Below the pieces are notes generated by a model. That model was not told the origin of the DNA. It saw only the letters and a list, made by a program, of their open reading frames with translations, and made no database searches. Source: a virus. From it: a DNA stretch of 34,947 bases. Positions 2,007 through 34,947 of the stretch are shown here, in pieces. Both the position numbers and the translations under genes were made by a program. Positions within the stretch are counted from its first letter, which is position 1. Every line of letters begins with the position of its first letter. Where the stretch lies: positions 1 through 34,947 of IMG/VR virus record IMGVR_UViG_3300037827_000247, one strand, 5' to 3'.

Positions 2007-3587
2007 ATGGAAGATTTACAAAAGCTTTATCGTCGTTTTTGGGAAGCCCGTCAATACAAGGATCGATGGCTTGCACTTTACAAGGACTTATATTTCTATG
2101 TTATTCCTGATCGAGATGCTTTTAATGTCAAGTTTAACTATCGGGATGACGGAAAACCCGTCACGCAGCAAATTTGGGACAACACGGCTATGCTGGCCGC
2201 TTATCAACGAGCTAACGATTTGCATGGACTCCTCTTGCCTAAAGATCGCGTCTGGGGAAAAATGGTTCTTGACCCGCACTTATACTCTCAAGAGCTAATT
2301 GATAAAGCTCAAACTACAATGGATGAAATCAATGACAGAATATTCTATTATCTTAACGAGTCTAACCTCAGCCGTGTTGTTAGTAGCAGCAATTTGGATC
2401 TTGTGGGCGGGACAGGAGCCATCTGGGTTGAATCACAATCAGACGAAGTGCCTTTATATTACCGGTCTATTCCTGCTGTTGCTTTGTATATTGAATATAG
2501 CACAGATGATGTAATTAATACTTGCTGGTTCGCTCAGAAGATGACAGCACGATCTATCATCGAAACATATCCAAACTATAGTGGAAAATTGAAAGCCACA
2601 TTGATGGAAGAGCCAGACGAAATTTTTACGGTTAACTTTGGACAGATTAAATATACGGAAGATAGTTTTTATATTTATGCTGTGATGGATGATGATCCAG
2701 AGAAATTATTATTTGAACGTGAAAGCACCTATCAGCAAATCATAGTCTATCGAGATCGTGTTAGACCGGGTGAAGCGGAAGGTCGTGGTATTGGTACTGA
2801 TATGTTGCCAACCATTAAAGACTTAAATTTAATGGTCTCATACAGCCGCGCTAACATGGCATTTAAAGCTAACCCTCCGATGTTCTACGATGCAGGATCA
2901 TACTTTAATCCTTATTCTGTAAGGCAGTGGTCAGGCGCTATGATTGCTCGAAGCCCGGGCGGTCGAAATCCATTAGAAGCATTAGAGATGCCAACGCATC
3001 CTGATGTGCTAGAACATATCTTGCATCTACAGGAAGCCATTCAGAAAGGTTTTCAGGTTGATCCGCTCGGTGAAATACAATCACCTGTACGCAGCGCAAC
3101 AGAAGTTTCGATCCGAGAAAATAGGGCGCAACGTACAAGTGCAACAGATATTAGCAGATTGATAAACGAACAGCCTAAACAAATATTTGATGTGGCCGCT
3201 AAGATTTTAAATGAGCGTGGATTACTGATCAAGAAGCGTCAATCAATACCCGGATTTTCTACAAAGAAATTACGCTTTGATTATGTTTCACCTTTGTATG
3301 ATATCCAGAACCAGCAAGATTTGAATCACTTCATCACTAATATGCAGATCAAGCAACAATTCTTTGGTCAAGGTGCAGCACTTGCAACCGCAAACATATT
3401 TGAGATCAATAAATTCTTAACAGATAAATTAAATTTACAAAGAAAATTATTCTCAAGTGATGATGAGTTGAGACAATTCTTAAAACAAATGATGCAGTCA
3501 AATGCAGCGCAGCAATTACCACCACCTAAACCTACAACGGCAGCCGGTGCAGTTAAATTCCCTGAACAACCACAGGTAACTATATAA
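2007..3587 (+). CDS. Portal (head-to-tail connector) protein
   Basis: The 526-aa protein matches the T7 gp8-type portal family (head-tail connector). The N-terminal block contains QQIWDNTAMLAAYQRANDLH followed by a short segment ending in LPKDRVWGKM, typical of these connectors. Its length is close to the usual 500-560 aa. Portals form the dodecameric ring at the capsid vertex through which the terminase pumps DNA, and they nucleate head assembly with scaffold. Mid-protein motifs such as RGIGTDMLPTIKDLN and the C-terminal Gln/Pro-rich tail also fit. The start at 2007 follows AAGGATGGTGG. The order portal - Bbp19 - scaffold - capsid is the conserved podovirus head order. Confidence 0.95.
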   Translation: MEDLQKLYRRFWEARQYKDRWLALYKDLYFYVIPDRDAFNVKFNYRDDGKPVTQQIWDNTAMLAAYQRANDLHGLLLPKDRVWGKMVLDPHLYSQELIDKAQTTMDEINDRIFYYLNESNLSRVVSSSNLDLVGGTGAIWVESQSDEVPLYYRSIPAVALYIEYSTDDVINTCWFAQKMTARSIIETYPNYSGKLKATLMEEPDEIFTVNFGQIKYTEDSFYIYAVMDDDPEKLLFERESTYQQIIVYRDRVRPGEAEGRGIGTDMLPTIKDLNLMVSYSRANMAFKANPPMFYDAGSYFNPYSVRQWSGAMIARSPGGRNPLEALEMPTHPDVLEHILHLQEAIQKGFQVDPLGEIQSPVRSATEVSIRENRAQRTSATDISRLINEQPKQIFDVAAKILNERGLLIKKRQSIPGFSTKKLRFDYVSPLYDIQNQQDLNHFITNMQIKQQFFGQGAALATANIFEINKFLTDKLNLQRKLFSSDDELRQFLKQMMQSNAAQQLPPPKPTTAAGAVKFPEQPQVTI

Positions 3588-8301: not shown

Positions 8302-10395
8302 ATGACCGAGAAAATGACTCGTCTTACAATATTCTCCACGGGCGAGGTGGATATTACGACGTGGAAACGCACTGATGTAAATGAGTATTTGTCGGCTGCA
8401 CAATCTTTATTAAACATGGAAGTAGGAACCACTGGTCTTACGAAAAAAAGGCCGGGTACGTCAGTGTTATTGAATGCCTCTCCTTATGCGAAATTTAATT
8501 CTCGAATGTATGATTTTGTTGATCAATTTGGCATTCATTATTTATTAATGTCATCGAGTGGCTTTTTCTATGTGTTTGGTGCGCCAACTGAGGAGACTCA
8601 AGTTATCACTAATACAGGTGCCGATGTTGTTACTGGATATGGTACAAATGTTGTCATAAATTCAAATAATTTATTATTCGTTCAAGCAATACCTACACCT
8701 TATTTAAGCGGTGATTTAGCAGCAATAGATTATACGCAAGATAATGATGTTTTTATTCTTTCACATCCTAGTTATCCACCAGCACGCATTTATATCAGTC
8801 AATATAATGGCTCAAGTCCTCCCACTTTTGCTTATATGCCACTTAATATTTATCCATTACCTTCCTACGATTTTAATACGATCAACTATAATAATTTTAC
8901 GGTGGCGCTCAGTGTTACTAATAATATTCTTACTTTTCAGTTTACCGGTCTTGGCAGTGATCCGGGATTTACCTCAGCGTGGATTGGCGGAGAAATTATT
9001 GGTGGAGGCGCTACAGACATTGATCCTGTGGGCTATGCTATTATTACTAACGTCTCATATTCTGGCGGCACTACCACATTTACTGCAACCGTCCAGATTC
9101 CCTTTCAAACTTCAGGCTACGCTACAATAGGCTCGCAATATTCTGTGCGGCAACCAGTGTGGAGTGCAGCATTGGGTTATCCTGCGAAGACTGTTTTTTA
9201 TCAAAGCCGTTTATGGTTTGCTAATACGCCTCAATTGAGTAACGGTATCTTTGGATCGAAAGTTAATAATCCAGTGAACTTTGATGTGGGTACAGGCCGT
9301 GATACAGATGCAATTGTTTATATCATTGGTCAAACTAATTCAGGTGCGATTCTTTGGATGAATGGTGGAAAGCAATTAGAAGTTTATTGTCAGAATTTAG
9401 AATTTGCATGTCCTCAGAATGAAAATGTTGCATTGACGCCTACGACTTTTGCAATCAGGCAGCAATCTGCCTATGGATCATCACCCTTATTAAAGCCGCT
9501 CACATATATTAATGATTCCTACTATGCGACAAAAACAGGAAAGGCATTCGTGAACTTCCATTTTAATGGCATAGGATTGACCTATACATCGAGTAATATC
9601 AGTGCTGCATCTTCGCATTTGGTAAAAAATCCAAGCAATAGGGCGCTCCTCCGTGGGTCTGACACCTCACAGGATAATTTTATTTACTATCTCAATCCTG
9701 ATGACGACACAATCACAGCATTTCAATTTGCAGCCGAATATAAGCTGGCAGCATTGACACCGATTACCTTCAATCAAGGCATACAATTGATTGATATAGC
9801 CACAATTGATAATTCTATATACATTTTGAAATACTATCCGCTTACTGATCAATTTACGGTTGAACAATTTGATGACAGTATTAGAGTGGATGCTGCATTT
9901 GATGCCGCAATGCAATCAAGCGGCCTTGTGACGGGGCTTTCATTGCTGAATGGCTATACTGTGCAAGTAGTATATAAAAATCAAGATTTTGGACAGTATT
10001 TAGTTGTTAATGGTCAGATCACAGTGACTAATCCGCAAAGTATCGCTGATACTGTATTGATTGGCATTTTGTATAGTAATAATGTAATCCCTATGTACCC
10101 CTTCTCAGGTGCCGCTGAATCGCCCTTTAAAAAGAAAGTCAGCCGTATCTATGTGGACTATTACAACTCGCTCAATTTTTCTGTCAATGGTAATCTTGTA
10201 CCATATCAGAATTACAAAGATATACAGGCAGGATTGCCATTAATGCCACAGACGAGTACCGCTATTATCACACCCATTTCAGGATGGAATCGATTTGATA
10301 ATAATGGCACACCTATCATCTCGATTACGCAATCCTCGCCCTTCGATTTGCAAATTTTAGGAATCGGCTATCAGATCGAATCTGAAGTCATATAG
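8302..10395 (+). CDS. Tail tube/nozzle protein, T7 gp12-like
   Basis: The 697-aa protein begins MTEKMTRLTIFSTGEVDITT. It is a large, beta-rich tail tubular protein B, the expected partner of the gp11-like adaptor. Features typical of the family are the early TWKRTDVNEYLSAAQSLLN segment, a short KKRPGT motif, the mid motif PAKTVFYQSRLWFANTPQLS, and VNFDVGTGRDTDAI. Its length is close to T7 gp12 (about 794 aa). The start at 8302 is chosen because AAGGAC lies five bases upstream. The open frame extends back to 8143, but those residues do not look like the family and partly lie over the antisense HNH gene. It would form the hexameric nozzle. Confidence 0.88.
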   Translation: MTEKMTRLTIFSTGEVDITTWKRTDVNEYLSAAQSLLNMEVGTTGLTKKRPGTSVLLNASPYAKFNSRMYDFVDQFGIHYLLMSSSGFFYVFGAPTEETQVITNTGADVVTGYGTNVVINSNNLLFVQAIPTPYLSGDLAAIDYTQDNDVFILSHPSYPPARIYISQYNGSSPPTFAYMPLNIYPLPSYDFNTINYNNFTVALSVTNNILTFQFTGLGSDPGFTSAWIGGEIIGGGATDIDPVGYAIITNVSYSGGTTTFTATVQIPFQTSGYATIGSQYSVRQPVWSAALGYPAKTVFYQSRLWFANTPQLSNGIFGSKVNNPVNFDVGTGRDTDAIVYIIGQTNSGAILWMNGGKQLEVYCQNLEFACPQNENVALTPTTFAIRQQSAYGSSPLLKPLTYINDSYYATKTGKAFVNFHFNGIGLTYTSSNISAASSHLVKNPSNRALLRGSDTSQDNFIYYLNPDDDTITAFQFAAEYKLAALTPITFNQGIQLIDIATIDNSIYILKYYPLTDQFTVEQFDDSIRVDAAFDAAMQSSGLVTGLSLLNGYTVQVVYKNQDFGQYLVVNGQITVTNPQSIADTVLIGILYSNNVIPMYPFSGAAESPFKKKVSRIYVDYYNSLNFSVNGNLVPYQNYKDIQAGLPLMPQTSTAIITPISGWNRFDNNGTPIISITQSSPFDLQILGIGYQIESEVI

Positions 10396-29365: not shown

Positions 29366-29893
29366 TTATGCTCTCCTCTCAAGCTGGCTATGTGTTTTAT
29401 TTTTAATGATCTCGCTGCCGTGTGTTTCGCGTATCTTGCTCATATCCCACGTGCCACGGTTAAAGCTTTTATAGTCAGCGGGTCTGAAATGCCACATTTC
29501 TTTTTTAGGAGCCCATTTAAAACCAGCCGTTTTTAAAATTTCACGGTGTGGCTTCGTATTGCCTGAAACCCAAACCCATGACCCGCACACTTCAATAGTC
29601 AGACCTAAATTTATAATCATTCCTAAAGCGGTATTAATCTCGTCACCGTAATTTTCACTCCCTGCGATATTCTCATTTTTAACGCTACGATCAAATGCGC
29701 ACCCGTTGCAAACGTCCTCTAGTGCTGCGTATGCTGCATTGATTAGCTTCATCATTTCAAGGCCAGCGGGGTTTTTATCTGGATGATAAGCGGCGCACGC
29801 TTTACGATATGCGTATTTGATTGACTCGGATTTTGTTTCAAGGCCAGTGGTTAAGCCTAGAATATGGAGTGCATCGTTATGATTCATTTTCAT
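29366..29893 (-). CDS. J-domain (DnaJ-like) protein
   Basis: The 175-aa protein has an N-terminal J domain: HILGLTTGLETKSESIKYAY then the catalytic HPD at 37-39 (YHPDKNPAG), which stimulates Hsp70 ATPase, and a helix with LINAAYAALED. The C-terminal ~100 residues are not a DnaJ zinc-finger or client domain; they contain CGSWVWVSGNTKPHREILKTAGF and FKWAPKKEMWHFRP, a beta-rich block. Such short phage J-proteins could recruit the host DnaK for replication or head assembly. The start follows AAGAGA. It leads the leftward block under a very good promoter. Confidence 0.8.
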   Translation of the reverse strand: MKMNHNDALHILGLTTGLETKSESIKYAYRKACAAYHPDKNPAGLEMMKLINAAYAALEDVCNGCAFDRSVKNENIAGSENYGDEINTALGMIINLGLTIEVCGSWVWVSGNTKPHREILKTAGFKWAPKKEMWHFRPADYKSFNRGTWDMSKIRETHGSEIIKNKTHSQLERRA

Positions 29894-32568: not shown

Positions 32569-32693
32569 TTGCTAGAATAGTATTAAAAAGTTTTTATAGT
32601 TTATTAGTTAAGATATTAATACTCATTTGCTTAATGGAAAGTGTTGTATTACTTAATGAGCTATTAGAATTAGTTCGTAGAATAATTGTATGA
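32565..32693 (+). CDS. Small single-pass membrane protein, 42 aa
   Basis: The ORF is coupled to both neighbours by ATGA overlaps at each end. It begins MIARIVLKSFYSLLVKILIL and continues ICLMESVVLLNELLELVRRI, an almost continuous hydrophobic helix flanked by positive charges. Size and shape would suit a small holin-like or accessory membrane protein, though nothing proves that. Confidence 0.6.
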   Translation: MIARIVLKSFYSLLVKILILICLMESVVLLNELLELVRRIIV

Positions 32694-32992
32694 AACAACA
32701 AGAACAGATAGTGCATAGTTATTACGGGTCATGGAAGATCGGCGAGAAAATTAAAACAGGAGTTCACTATCTCATGTTGGATGAACATATTAAGAAGACC
32801 GTAAACGCTGAGAAAGACAAGCTGGCAGTTGAGATTCAGACTATACTTAAAACCTATAGTGATAAGATCGCATCGATTGATAAACGTGTTTCAGAGTATT
32901 TTCAGTTCTTAGGACAATTGATCGAACTCAATAGCCTTAAGATGCCCATTAAAGGAAAAGGAAAGGCCAAGAAGAAGGAAGCCAAGAAATGA
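32690..32992 (+). CDS. Helical protein with Lys-rich tail, 100 aa
   Basis: The protein begins MKQQEQIVHSYYGSWKIGEK; the middle is helical and the tail is KGKGKAKKKEAKK. Both ends overlap neighbours by ATGA, so it is one of four consecutive tightly coupled genes leading to the exonuclease. The function is unknown. Confidence 0.6.
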   Translation: MKQQEQIVHSYYGSWKIGEKIKTGVHYLMLDEHIKKTVNAEKDKLAVEIQTILKTYSDKIASIDKRVSEYFQFLGQLIELNSLKMPIKGKGKAKKKEAKK

Positions 32993-33552
32993 ACGAAGAA
33001 ATACAGAACATTTTAATCATTGATACAGAGACCACAGGGCTTCATCCGGATAAAGGCGCAAAGTTAATCGAGATTGGTGCGCTGTTATACAATATCAAGC
33101 ATAAGAAAGTACTGCAAACCTTCTCAACATTTCTACCGTGTGAAGAAAATCCCGTCCAAGATATTAATAATATCGATCCAGCATGGACGCAGATTGTGAC
33201 GCCTATTGTGCCAGCCTTAGACTTTCTTGATAAGATGGCCTTTAATGCGGATTATCTAGTCGCCCATAATGCTCAATTCGACAAGAAGTTTATAGAACAT
33301 GCCTATCCTTTGGGCGACATCTTGCATTCTACATGGGTCTGTACCAAGAATGATTTTAAATGGCCTGTGACGCTGTATCGGAATCGGCTATCAGATATCT
33401 GCGAGGCCATGGGCGTACCTTACGTCAATGCGCATAGAGCGCTCAATGATTGCGCATTTATTGCTTCATGCTTTGATAAGATTCACGACCTTGAGCAACG
33501 ATTTGAAAGTGCAGCAAAATCAGCTATGATGTCGTCAAATAAATTTAGGTAA
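32989..33552 (+). CDS. DEDDh 3'-5' exonuclease
   Basis: The 187-aa protein has all exonuclease signatures of the DnaQ-like DEDDh family: ExoI IIDTETTG with Asp 12 and Glu 14, ExoII AHNAQFD with Asp 98, and ExoIII HRALND with His 149 and Asp 154. It would cut single-stranded DNA or RNA from the 3' end using two metal ions. Such phage enzymes act in proofreading, RNA turnover or degradation of host nucleic acid. No phage DNA polymerase is present, and the gene lies immediately upstream of the tRNA-like cluster, so a role in RNA 3'-end maturation is a plausible inference. Confidence 0.88.
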   Translation: MNEEIQNILIIDTETTGLHPDKGAKLIEIGALLYNIKHKKVLQTFSTFLPCEENPVQDINNIDPAWTQIVTPIVPALDFLDKMAFNADYLVAHNAQFDKKFIEHAYPLGDILHSTWVCTKNDFKWPVTLYRNRLSDICEAMGVPYVNAHRALNDCAFIASCFDKIHDLEQRFESAAKSAMMSSNKFR

Positions 33553-33561
33553 AGATTTATA

Positions 33562-33644
33562 GCAATCGTACCTCAGTTGGTTAGAGGAGGTGTTCAGCTT
33601 AAAACGCTAGCGCCAAGTCGTTGGTTCGAGTCCAACCGATTGCG
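33562..33644 (+). tRNA. tRNA-like gene 1 with expanded anticodon arm
   Basis: This 83-nt RNA has a 7-bp acceptor (GCAATCG/CGATTGC), D stem CCTC/GAGG with a 9-nt AGTTGGTTA loop, and a 5-bp T stem GTTGG/CCAAC with the canonical TTCGAGT loop. A 5-nt variable region AAGTC follows the anticodon stem GGTGT/GCGCC (33589-33593, 33610-33614; two wobbles). Between these strands are 16 bases rather than 7, forming a further AGC/GCT stem under a TTAAAAC loop. No CCA is encoded. The anticodon is ambiguous, so amino-acid identity is not assigned. It could be a tRNA, a degenerate tRNA or a decoy. Confidence 0.75.
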
Positions 33645-33653
33645 CTGATTTAT

Positions 33654-33730
33654 GGGAATCAGGTACAGTCAGCCTACACTCTGCAAAGAGTTCCAGTAGG
33701 TGGAAGCCATCGGCGAAGTGGTTGATTCCC
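33654..33730 (+). ncRNA. tRNA-like gene 2 (class II shape, non-canonical loops)
   Basis: The 77 nt are closed by a perfect 7-bp stem GGGAATC/GATTCCC. Inside are GTA/TAC (D-like), ACTC-TGCAAA-GAGT (anticodon-like, containing GCA), TCCA-GTAGG-TGGA (like a long variable arm) and GCCA/TGGT with a 9-nt loop (T-like). The T loop lacks TTCRA and the anticodon loop is six bases, so it is not a standard tRNA. It might be read as tRNA-Cys(GCA). A GATTTAT spacer precedes it, as for units 1 and 3. Confidence 0.5.
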
Positions 33731-33741
33731 TCTCGATTTAT

Positions 33742-33786
33742 GGCTATCCGAAAACTCTATGTAGACTTAGGGAAGATAGGCCACCA
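33742..33786 (+). ncRNA. tRNA-like unit 3, armless minimal form with CCA
   Basis: GGCTATC (33742-33748) pairs with GATAGGCC (33775-33782) with one bulge, enclosing CTCTA/TAGGG (33755-33759, 33768-33772) around an 8-base loop TGTAGACT. ACCA (33783-33786) follows the closing stem exactly where a discriminator plus CCA would be. D and T arms are missing. It is preceded by GATTTAT, like the two previous units. It could be a degenerate tRNA. Confidence 0.4.
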
Positions 33787-33819
33787 TATTGTTAAGCTCA
33801 ACAAAAAGGTAGTTATTAA

Positions 33820-33969
33820 ATGGATAATGAGCAAGCTGCTAGAGAGATAGTTAAGATACTTAAAAAGCCATTAATTGAATATATTGATTTAATCATAGAG
33901 CAAAGATGTGTGATTACTATCGCAAAAGTATTAGAAATAATGAAAGAAAAAAATAATAAAAAGGAATAA
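33820..33969 (+). CDS. Small helical protein, 49 aa
   Basis: The ORF begins MDNEQAAREIVKILKKPLIE and ends in a Lys/Asn-rich tail. It is helical and amphipathic, with no recognised family. AAGG precedes the start. It directly follows the tRNA-like cluster and a TTGTT/AACAA hairpin (33789-33804). Confidence 0.55.
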   Translation: MDNEQAAREIVKILKKPLIEYIDLIIEQRCVITIAKVLEIMKEKNNKKE

Positions 33970-33974
33970 TTAAA

Positions 33975-34184
33975 ATGCGGTCAATGACAGTTTTACTATT
34001 TTTCTTATCCATAGCTAGTTCATGCGCAATCTGCATCGTGATAGGCCATTGTATTTATATTTATACTGGAAGTTTAATTTACTCATGCATGTTTAATTTT
34101 TCATTTAGTTTTCTTTCAGGGTTAATTGTTAGCCAGTATGTGATTGATAGATTTGTACGGCCTATTTTCTCTTTAACAAGGTAG
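33975..34184 (+). CDS. Membrane protein with two transmembrane segments (holin candidate)
   Basis: The 69-aa protein has two hydrophobic segments (residues ~5-30 and ~33-56) with a short loop and a basic C-terminus (DRFVRPIFSLTR). This is the size and topology of class II holins. A holin role is inferred only, since no endolysin is next to it. AAGGA precedes the start. Confidence 0.6.
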   Translation: MRSMTVLLFFLSIASSCAICIVIGHCIYIYTGSLIYSCMFNFSFSFLSGLIVSQYVIDRFVRPIFSLTR

Positions 34185-34192
34185 ATGTAAAC

Positions 34193-34477
34193 ATGGTAGA
34201 TAAATCTATTACACTCACGGCTGGTGACTGGCAAATTGAGGGTAATGCCGAAGAGGGTATTACCAAAGTGATGCCTATGCCTCCGTTAGAGGGTAAAGGT
34301 TTAAACGCGGGTGAATATGATTTTATCATTGACAGTTTAATAGGTGAGTACGCAACGATTCATGGTGGAAAAAATTTAGTTATAAGAATCTCCTTGAACC
34401 GCAAAACGACATGGGAAGAAATACTAAAGGCTATACCGAAAGGTAGCTTGGTAAAAAGTTATAGAAGGGTAAGATAA
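34193..34477 (+). CDS. Hypothetical protein, 94 aa
   Basis: The protein begins MVDKSITLTAGDWQIEGNAE. The N-terminal half is beta-rich and acidic; the C-terminal half includes NRKTTWEEILKAIPKGSLVK. I do not recognise it. It is coupled to the next gene by close spacing (one base). Confidence 0.6.
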   Translation: MVDKSITLTAGDWQIEGNAEEGITKVMPMPPLEGKGLNAGEYDFIIDSLIGEYATIHGGKNLVIRISLNRKTTWEEILKAIPKGSLVKSYRRVR

Positions 34478-34478
34478 G

Positions 34479-34832
34479 ATGAGTATAGTTCACGATGATG
34501 ATTTGCCAGCGGGAATGAAAGAGCGTCAAAAGATAGCACACGAAATTGCGAAACAATCCTGTGAGCAAGTATGGAATATTGCAATTGATGCAGAACAAAA
34601 AATTGGTTTGCAAGTATCAGGTAACGAAGCTCTATCCTATATGGGAACAATTTTACAAGATTTTGCTGCTCGATGGATTATATTAATGGATGATATTAGA
34701 AGAGCCGACCATTCAATAGTTGAAAGAGAAGATTTAATTAAAAACGTAATAAATGGAATTTTGGCATCTATAGGGGCTTCCGCTACTTTTGAGAAAGAGG
34801 CTCCGCTACCATATGGTATAAAACGATTATGA
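34479..34832 (+). CDS. Hypothetical helical protein, 117 aa
   Basis: The protein begins MSIVHDDDLPAGMKERQKIA and is helical throughout, with no membrane segment. Its stop overlaps the next gene across the circular junction (ATGA at 34829), which confirms that the contig joins end to end in frame. The function is unknown. Confidence 0.65.
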   Translation: MSIVHDDDLPAGMKERQKIAHEIAKQSCEQVWNIAIDAEQKIGLQVSGNEALSYMGTILQDFAARWIILMDDIRRADHSIVEREDLIKNVINGILASIGASATFEKEAPLPYGIKRL

Positions 34833-34947
34833 AATTTAAAAAAAGAATAGCAATAAGACCAGCATATGATAAACGTGATTCTAATCCAAAGAAAAATTAT
34901 GGAATTCATGGATGTGATATGCTTTTTACATTAATTGGTGAAAAAGG
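34821..34947. repeat. Terminal direct repeat (right copy)
   Basis: This is an exact copy of bases 1-127. The start codon at 34829 begins a truncated second copy of the 146-aa gene at 9-449. On the circle that start overlaps the stop of the preceding 117-aa gene by four bases (ATGA). It should not be annotated as a separate gene. Confidence 0.95.

Follow-up and report, generated by a model that had tools for sequence, protein, structure and literature searches.

The IMG/VR virus contig IMGVR_UViG_3300037827_000247, all 34,947 bases of which are referred to here as the window, contains a tandem array of three small structured RNA units that starts directly 3' of the stop codon of an exonuclease gene. 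In the initial annotation, these units were described as RNAs that resemble transfer RNA (tRNA) but have abnormal arms, each preceded by a GATTTAT spacer at positions 33554, 33647 and 33735. Both the positions and the tRNA-like character were borne out. The idea of a graded series of tRNA mimics was not, since the units are of three different kinds: a tRNA body with an elongated anticodon arm (unit 1), a class II tRNA-like RNA (unit 2, of a type termed class C) and a probable degenerate member of a family termed class A, in which a module of 5S ribosomal RNA (rRNA) is closed by a tRNA-type end (unit 3). The features are given below with the evidence for each; sequences used for comparison carry labels such as L004.

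33554-33560, plus strand: GATTTAT leader of unit 1 (sequence)
33562-33643, plus strand: unit 1, tRNA body (ARAGORN, RF00005 score, relative in L203)
33562-33568 with 33637-33643, plus strand: acceptor of unit 1
33571-33587, plus strand: D arm of unit 1
33589-33614, plus strand: elongated anticodon arm of unit 1 (fold, 9-bp arm of unrelated sequence in L203)
33620-33636, plus strand: T arm of unit 1
33647-33653, plus strand: GATTTAT leader of unit 2 (sequence)
33654-33734, plus strand: unit 2, class II tRNA-like RNA with a 7-bp acceptor, GGGAATC/GATTCCC (identity to L031 and L004, compensatory change, fold)
33678-33691, plus strand: anticodon-like hairpin of unit 2
33692-33704, plus strand: variable arm of unit 2, a hairpin
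33705-33723, plus strand: T-arm-like stem of unit 2
33735-33741, plus strand: GATTTAT leader of unit 3 (sequence)
33742-33786, plus strand: unit 3, probable degenerate RNA of class A with ACCA at its 3' end (model R1, alignment to a class A unit of L004)
33789-33804, plus strand: small hairpin TTGTTAAGCTCAACAA at the end of the array (sequence; within the block 33770-33811, aligned at 90% to L004)
32989-33552, plus strand: DnaQ/RNase_T-type exonuclease gene (Pfam PF00929, phrog_192)

Relatives of the array were reached through the exonuclease protein, which led to L002, L003 and L004, and pattern scans added L031 and others; tRNAs were called with ARAGORN and Rfam models. Class A was defined by a helix P1, a 7x7 loop E core, a helix P2 and a terminal RCCA, following a TTTAT leader. 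Pattern scans identified about 50 members in about 40 IMG/VR phage records; among 84,980 cellular genomes, none gave a match that could be accepted. Two control patterns with one letter changed gave 0 and 1 matches, the sole match (L215) being without leader and context, and model R1 matched 32 of 44 records. In the alignment of 51 members, 90.3% of the cells were paired and double changes were seen in 8 of the 9 pairs; none of 500 shuffles reached the observed covariation scores, and slid controls were far lower. The outer helix occurred in the forms GGCC/GGCC, GGGC/GCCC, GGAC/GTCC, GGTC/GACC and GCCC/GGGC, and the inner domain was the most variable part within a nearly constant frame. The conservation of the core is partly by construction, since the scan fixed part of the core and part of the 3' strand; independent evidence comes from the outer helix, whose 5' letters match, from the inner helix as a whole and from members that only model R1 detected. 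A lack of covariation among related phages had been named beforehand as the observation that would speak against function, and covariation was found in class A as well as in class B (see below), along with a compensatory change in unit 2.

No Rfam family was found for class A or class B. With Rfam models, at gathering or permissive thresholds, the window, ten loci and 20 array regions gave only tRNAs and sub-threshold noise. A BLAST comparison with 50,697 phage records, in which the window array and units of classes A and B were the queries, gave only tRNA fragments or noise. No paper on such arrays was found in the open-access literature, most subscription journals being outside that search. 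The motif YGACGA...GAAA was also considered as a hammerhead-like RNA and rejected, because a third stem and a cleavage site are missing and because the symmetric 7x7 core fits loop E.

Loop E of bacterial 5S rRNA has a symmetric layout with seven non-Watson-Crick pairs, and the 7x7 internal loop of class A, GACGAUA x GAAAAUA, has the same layout. The first hint of this was a presumed resemblance to chloroplast and cyanobacterial 5S rRNA, and the claim now rests on a comparison with loop E from 60 distinct genuine 5S rRNAs, found in genomes with RF00001. The class A consensus was present verbatim in 3 of the 60, and so were three variants: GACAATA x GAAGATA, from the L004 unit at 861, in two; GAAGATA x GAAAATA, from L024, in one; and GATGATA x GAAAGTA, from L205, in twelve. 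Both strands change together in the central G.A to A.G swap and in the C.A to U.G exchange, matching the loop E model. The 5S rRNA L227 reads CCGACGATACT...GGGAAAATAGG, which equals the class A consensus with the neighbouring pairs included. The U.G pair of helix IV was observed in 60/60 of the 5S rRNAs and in 33/51 of the class A members, and the flanking C-G pair likewise agrees. An agreement of 12 of the 14 letters with loop E has a chance probability of 3e-6.

Core letters, strand order and the flanking C-G and U.G pairs of class A are identical to those of the helix V/loop E/helix IV segment of 5S rRNA (RF00001), which is the binding region of bL25. Class A differs from 5S rRNA in that the other parts are absent, the module is closed by a stem of 4-5 bp plus RCCA, and it opens into a variable domain. 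The full RF00001 model gave no match on the class A units of L004 (E ≤ 10) or on the 20 array regions (E ≤ 3), so that class A is not a 5S rRNA but one 5S module with a tRNA-type end. A C.A-type loop E identical to that of class A was seen only in the 5S rRNAs of a Chloroflexota sample (L225, L227 and L236), with none among 500 genomes from three further phyla, which may hint at the host group and is suggestive only.

Unit 3 has an acceptor-like stem with one bulge and one inner hairpin (5 bp with an 8-base loop) followed by ACCA, much as first described, and is without D arm or T arm. Since its fold alone is not significant (z -0.69), its reality rests on its relatives; RF00005 gave no match at E ≤ 5. 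Model R1 scored the unit at 12.6 bits (E 0.0037 in 351 bases), as compared to 28-63 bits for other class A members, and its 3' half aligned with the last class A unit of L004. The leader, P1, the 3' core strand and ACCA are all present, while the 5' strand of the loop E core has been lost. Unit 3 appears to be an eroded member of class A and not a derivative of a tRNA. Three units on the minus strand of L203, at about 9316-9505, are variants of class A that have U-A in place of the outer G.A pairs of loop E (TATGATA x TAAGATA), possibly a step toward the fully paired form of unit 3 in the window. An intact 49-nucleotide (nt) unit with two hairpins like unit 3 (an 8-bp acceptor-like stem, one hairpin and ACCA) was observed on the minus strand of L018, at 3464-3512.

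Unit 2 shows the class II layout previously proposed for it, with the 7-bp acceptor, the variable-arm hairpin and the T-arm-like stem, and it folds better than shuffles (z -3.65). It matched no tRNA model (ARAGORN; RF00005 at E ≤ 5). The anticodon-like hairpin, ACUCU(GCAA)AGAGU, can be drawn with a 4-bp stem and the six-base loop given in the initial annotation, or with a 5-bp stem, in which case the loop has 4 bases. A search for class C returned two true relatives, in L031 and L004, and one doubtful stretch in L198. Unit 2 was identical to L031 at 79/81 positions (97.5%) and to L004 at 76/81 (94%), in each case as part of the same array, whereas the adjoining exonuclease DNA was only 67% and 78% identical, respectively. 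Among the relatives, the T-arm-like stem shows a double change (A-U to G-C) and the acceptor an A-U to G-U change, and the loop of the anticodon-like hairpin also differs, including in its length; this is the pattern that selection on a non-decoding structure would leave. The minimum-energy fold conflicts with the T-arm-like stem, and the double change, a single event and thin evidence, would favour the stem.

For unit 1, the initial reading as a tRNA cloverleaf with about nine extra bases in the anticodon arm was upheld. ARAGORN called it a tRNA of type "???" with a 4-base anticodon, and it scored 46.1 bits with RF00005 (cut-off 29). The anticodon arm is 26 nt long, as compared to the normal 17, and reads GGUGUU-c-AGC / loop UUAAAAC / GCU-AGCGCC, forming 9 bp with one bulged C where a tRNA has a 5-bp stem with a 7-base loop. 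According to the initial annotation, strong normal tRNA calls would have made units 1 and 2 ordinary tRNAs; unit 1 was called, but with a 9-bp arm, and unit 2 was not. In the relative of unit 1 in L203, the D and T arms are nearly identical and the acceptor is different, with 8 bp, while the anticodon arm consists of wholly different letters and again forms 9 bp, with one mismatch and a 4-base loop. That two unrelated sequences form the same elongated arm points to selection acting on its shape. Unit 1 shares its acceptor letters, GCAATCG/CGATTGC, with class B.

Class B units have the layout GGCAATCG-CGGCGTGGACAGTGACACGC-variable-T arm-CGATTGCC, in which the acceptor (8 bp), a D-like hairpin and a T arm that has a T-like loop all covary (score 0.275 versus 0.132 in shuffles, reached in 0/500 shuffles). 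In place of the anticodon part there is a variable domain, mostly of 50-150 nt. Another TTTAT-to-RCCA unit, GGCTCTCGATGAC...GAGAGCC-RCCA, was found in two different records, and ordinary tRNAs are present in several arrays. Units with pairing ends also recur in arrays, namely class D (GGGGNGAGAAGGGNTAA...CCCAGCCA, in L011 and L015) and class E (GGCTYTCGATG...RAGCC-RCCA, in L012, L033 and L117). Hairpins with T-loop-like UGAAAGY loops, such as CGGTGAAAGCCCG, were seen in many array regions (L003, L005, L029, L033 and L197) and are possibly mimics of the tRNA elbow.

Each GATTTAT in the window abuts its structured unit with a gap of at most 1 base. TTTAT was located immediately 5' of 29 of 50 class A units, against a background of 0.29% of all positions, and the leader letters T-4, A-2 and T-1 were each present in 46/50, so that the proposed common spacer is a real, recurrent unit boundary. 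At the 3' end, ACCA or GCCA (RCCA) was found in 48/51 class A units. Within the window only unit 3 encodes CCA, unit 1 ending in GCT and unit 2 in TCTC. A closing hairpin of the TTGTTAAGCTCAACAA type was also found behind the L004 array.

The array of L004, which likewise follows its exonuclease gene, contains a tRNA-Gln, a class B unit, a class C unit and four tandem class A units of the type GGCY-GACRATA...GARRATA-GGCC-ACCA, separated by TTTAT. The connector protein in the record of L004 (G003) is 98% identical to that of the window over 492 residues, yet the array differs: the flanks have 77-85% DNA identity, and alignment between them is limited to unit 2 and the 3' end of unit 3. The G003 connector was read in two pieces with a stop, indicative of a frameshift or an assembly error. 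Class A was also found in phages with connectors 66-90% or about 25% identical to that of the window, and in some class A phages, whose records are in part fragments, no member of this connector family was found. Since class A occurs across such divergent backgrounds, the arrays look like modules that have spread across phage lineages.

Our tentative reading, to which we give slightly less than even weight, is that the units in the window exemplify a virus-specific, fast-changing array of mimic RNAs, released by the tRNA route and acting as decoys for host proteins that bind or cut tRNA or rRNA. The array would be transcribed in one piece with the neighbouring gene, and host enzymes would free each unit, RNase P cutting 5' at the T-rich leader, and 3' trimming and the CCA-adding enzyme acting at or after the discriminator or RCCA; units 1 and 2 would need CCA addition. 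We infer this route from established tRNA biology. The frames would have been copied from host translation RNAs: tRNA bodies in unit 1, class B and the true tRNAs; class II bodies in unit 2; and, in class A, of which unit 3 would be an eroded copy, the helix V/loop E/helix IV module of 5S rRNA with a tRNA-type end to close it. The decoding part, that is the anticodon arm, or the rest of the 5S rRNA, would have been swapped for a variable domain. The tRNA-like units could then act as decoys or sponges for tRNA-cutting defences or tRNA-binding factors in infected cells, and the loop E units as decoys for a 5S-binding protein. The obvious candidate would be bL25, the choice of target being a guess, and the decoy role is the least certain step.

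Phage tRNAs counter tRNA-cutting defences by supply and possibly as decoys, examples being the tRNA clusters of T5 and T6 versus retron-Eco7, PrrC and Septu (PMC11555353, PMC13096335). The arrays share with these clusters the tandem tRNA genes and the turnover, and some of their units are true tRNAs. Unlike in the clusters, most units cannot decode, because the anticodon arm is elongated or replaced or there is no tRNA body, and a 5S module is included. Supply is therefore excluded as the mechanism for the non-decoding units, and sponges fit better, given that non-decoding tRNA bodies occur together with RNAs modelled on the part of 5S rRNA that bL25 binds. Phage tRNA clusters as such are well known, and any novelty lies in an array with 5S/tRNA chimeras. 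The T4 tRNA cluster gives rise to the stable non-tRNA RNAs C and D, cut from the phage tRNA transcript; these are two RNAs, not a modular, widely shared family with a 5S loop E. Class B resembles transfer-messenger RNA (tmRNA, RF00023) and YrlA in carrying an inserted domain along with its acceptor and T arm. ARAGORN found no tmRNA in the window or the loci scanned, and Rfam matches to tmRNA and YrlA in the 20 array regions were partial or far below cut-off.

The main rival to decoys is that the units are small regulatory or guide RNAs that borrow the tRNA pathway, with frames that serve as processing or stability caps and a function located in the variable inner domain, such as pairing with RNAs of the host or of rival phages. 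The contrast between variable inner domains and nearly constant frames in classes A and B is what this would predict. We nevertheless consider it unlikely, since unit 2 is conserved throughout apart from one loop, some units (the 49-nt unit of L018 and unit 3 of the window) are almost without inner domain, and the exact 5S loop E, complete with the U.G pair beside it, would be superfluous in a plain cap. Phage tRNA genes that have lost their function, the initial suggestion of tRNAs in decay, would explain the tRNA score of unit 1 despite its unusable anticodon arm, and the loss of half the core in unit 3. This is quite improbable overall: unit 2 is far better conserved than the adjacent gene, covariation in classes A and B extends over dozens of phages, and unit 3 appears to derive from a 5S-like family and not from a tRNA. 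Decay is thereby largely refuted for unit 2 and the arrays and fits unit 3 only, which does look eroded.

Elements that act at the DNA level, with TTTAT...RCCA as cassette or recombination boundaries for the shuffling of modules between phages and with hairpins functioning in single-stranded DNA, would account for the short constant boundary and for the quick gain, loss and tandem duplication of units, as in the four class A copies of L004. Such elements are highly improbable, however, as the G.U pairs (U.G in 33 members at one pair) and the non-Watson-Crick pairs of loop E indicate RNA, the T-loop and acceptor features are tRNA-specific, and most flanking open reading frames (ORFs) share the strand of the units (92 vs 28). 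Functional tRNAs for unusual or extended codons are extremely improbable. The normal D and T arms, the 7-base loop and the proposed 4-base anticodon of unit 1 would agree with decoding, as would the true tRNAs in related arrays, but the anticodon would be out of place on a stem of 9 bp, the loop of the L203 relative has 4 bases, class A is without anticodon and the hairpin loop of unit 2 varies in length.

The decoy reading also has points against it. Units 1 and 2 are without an encoded CCA, and the function could instead reside in the inner domains. No bL25 gene was found in 20 array-bearing phage records, and nothing else in the records examined pointed to a target. The C.A-type consensus loop E was not found in the 5S rRNAs of 398 Pseudomonadota, 51 Bacteroidota and 51 Bacillota genomes, so that class A may or may not copy the 5S rRNA of its own host.

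A broader version of the decoy reading, which we regard as doubtful, is that environmental phages carry hypervariable arrays of mimic RNAs, copied from different parts of the host's translation RNAs and matured as tRNAs, with every unit titrating out a host protein of its own for counter-defence or takeover, and that one target is bL25 or another loop-E-binding protein not previously known in phage-host conflict. Dozens of phages of different lineages contain several families of structured RNA that Rfam lacks and that were not found in cellular genomes; among them is a chimera in which a 5S rRNA module has tRNA-type ends. If these are decoys, they would name new host targets of phage conflict and provide a route to the host proteins by which 5S loop E or tRNA bodies are recognised in infected cells. 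Turnover among close phage relatives marks the locus as being under strong, changing selection.

The window was assigned to a podovirus on the basis of its connector and tail genes; its resemblance to Vibrio and Pelagibacter podoviruses in culture is distant, at about 24% for the connector. There is no ORF of at least 50 amino acids within 33553-33974, and a promoter and terminator scan of 32600-34300 gave no signal exceeding chance, and for these reasons the array is probably part of the exonuclease transcript. The L004 sequence that matches the right end of the window (34449-34846) continues into sequence that matches the left end (599-2805), and the contig is therefore probably a circularly permuted, near-complete genome. 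A DnaJ-domain protein is encoded on the minus strand of the window, at 29366-29893.
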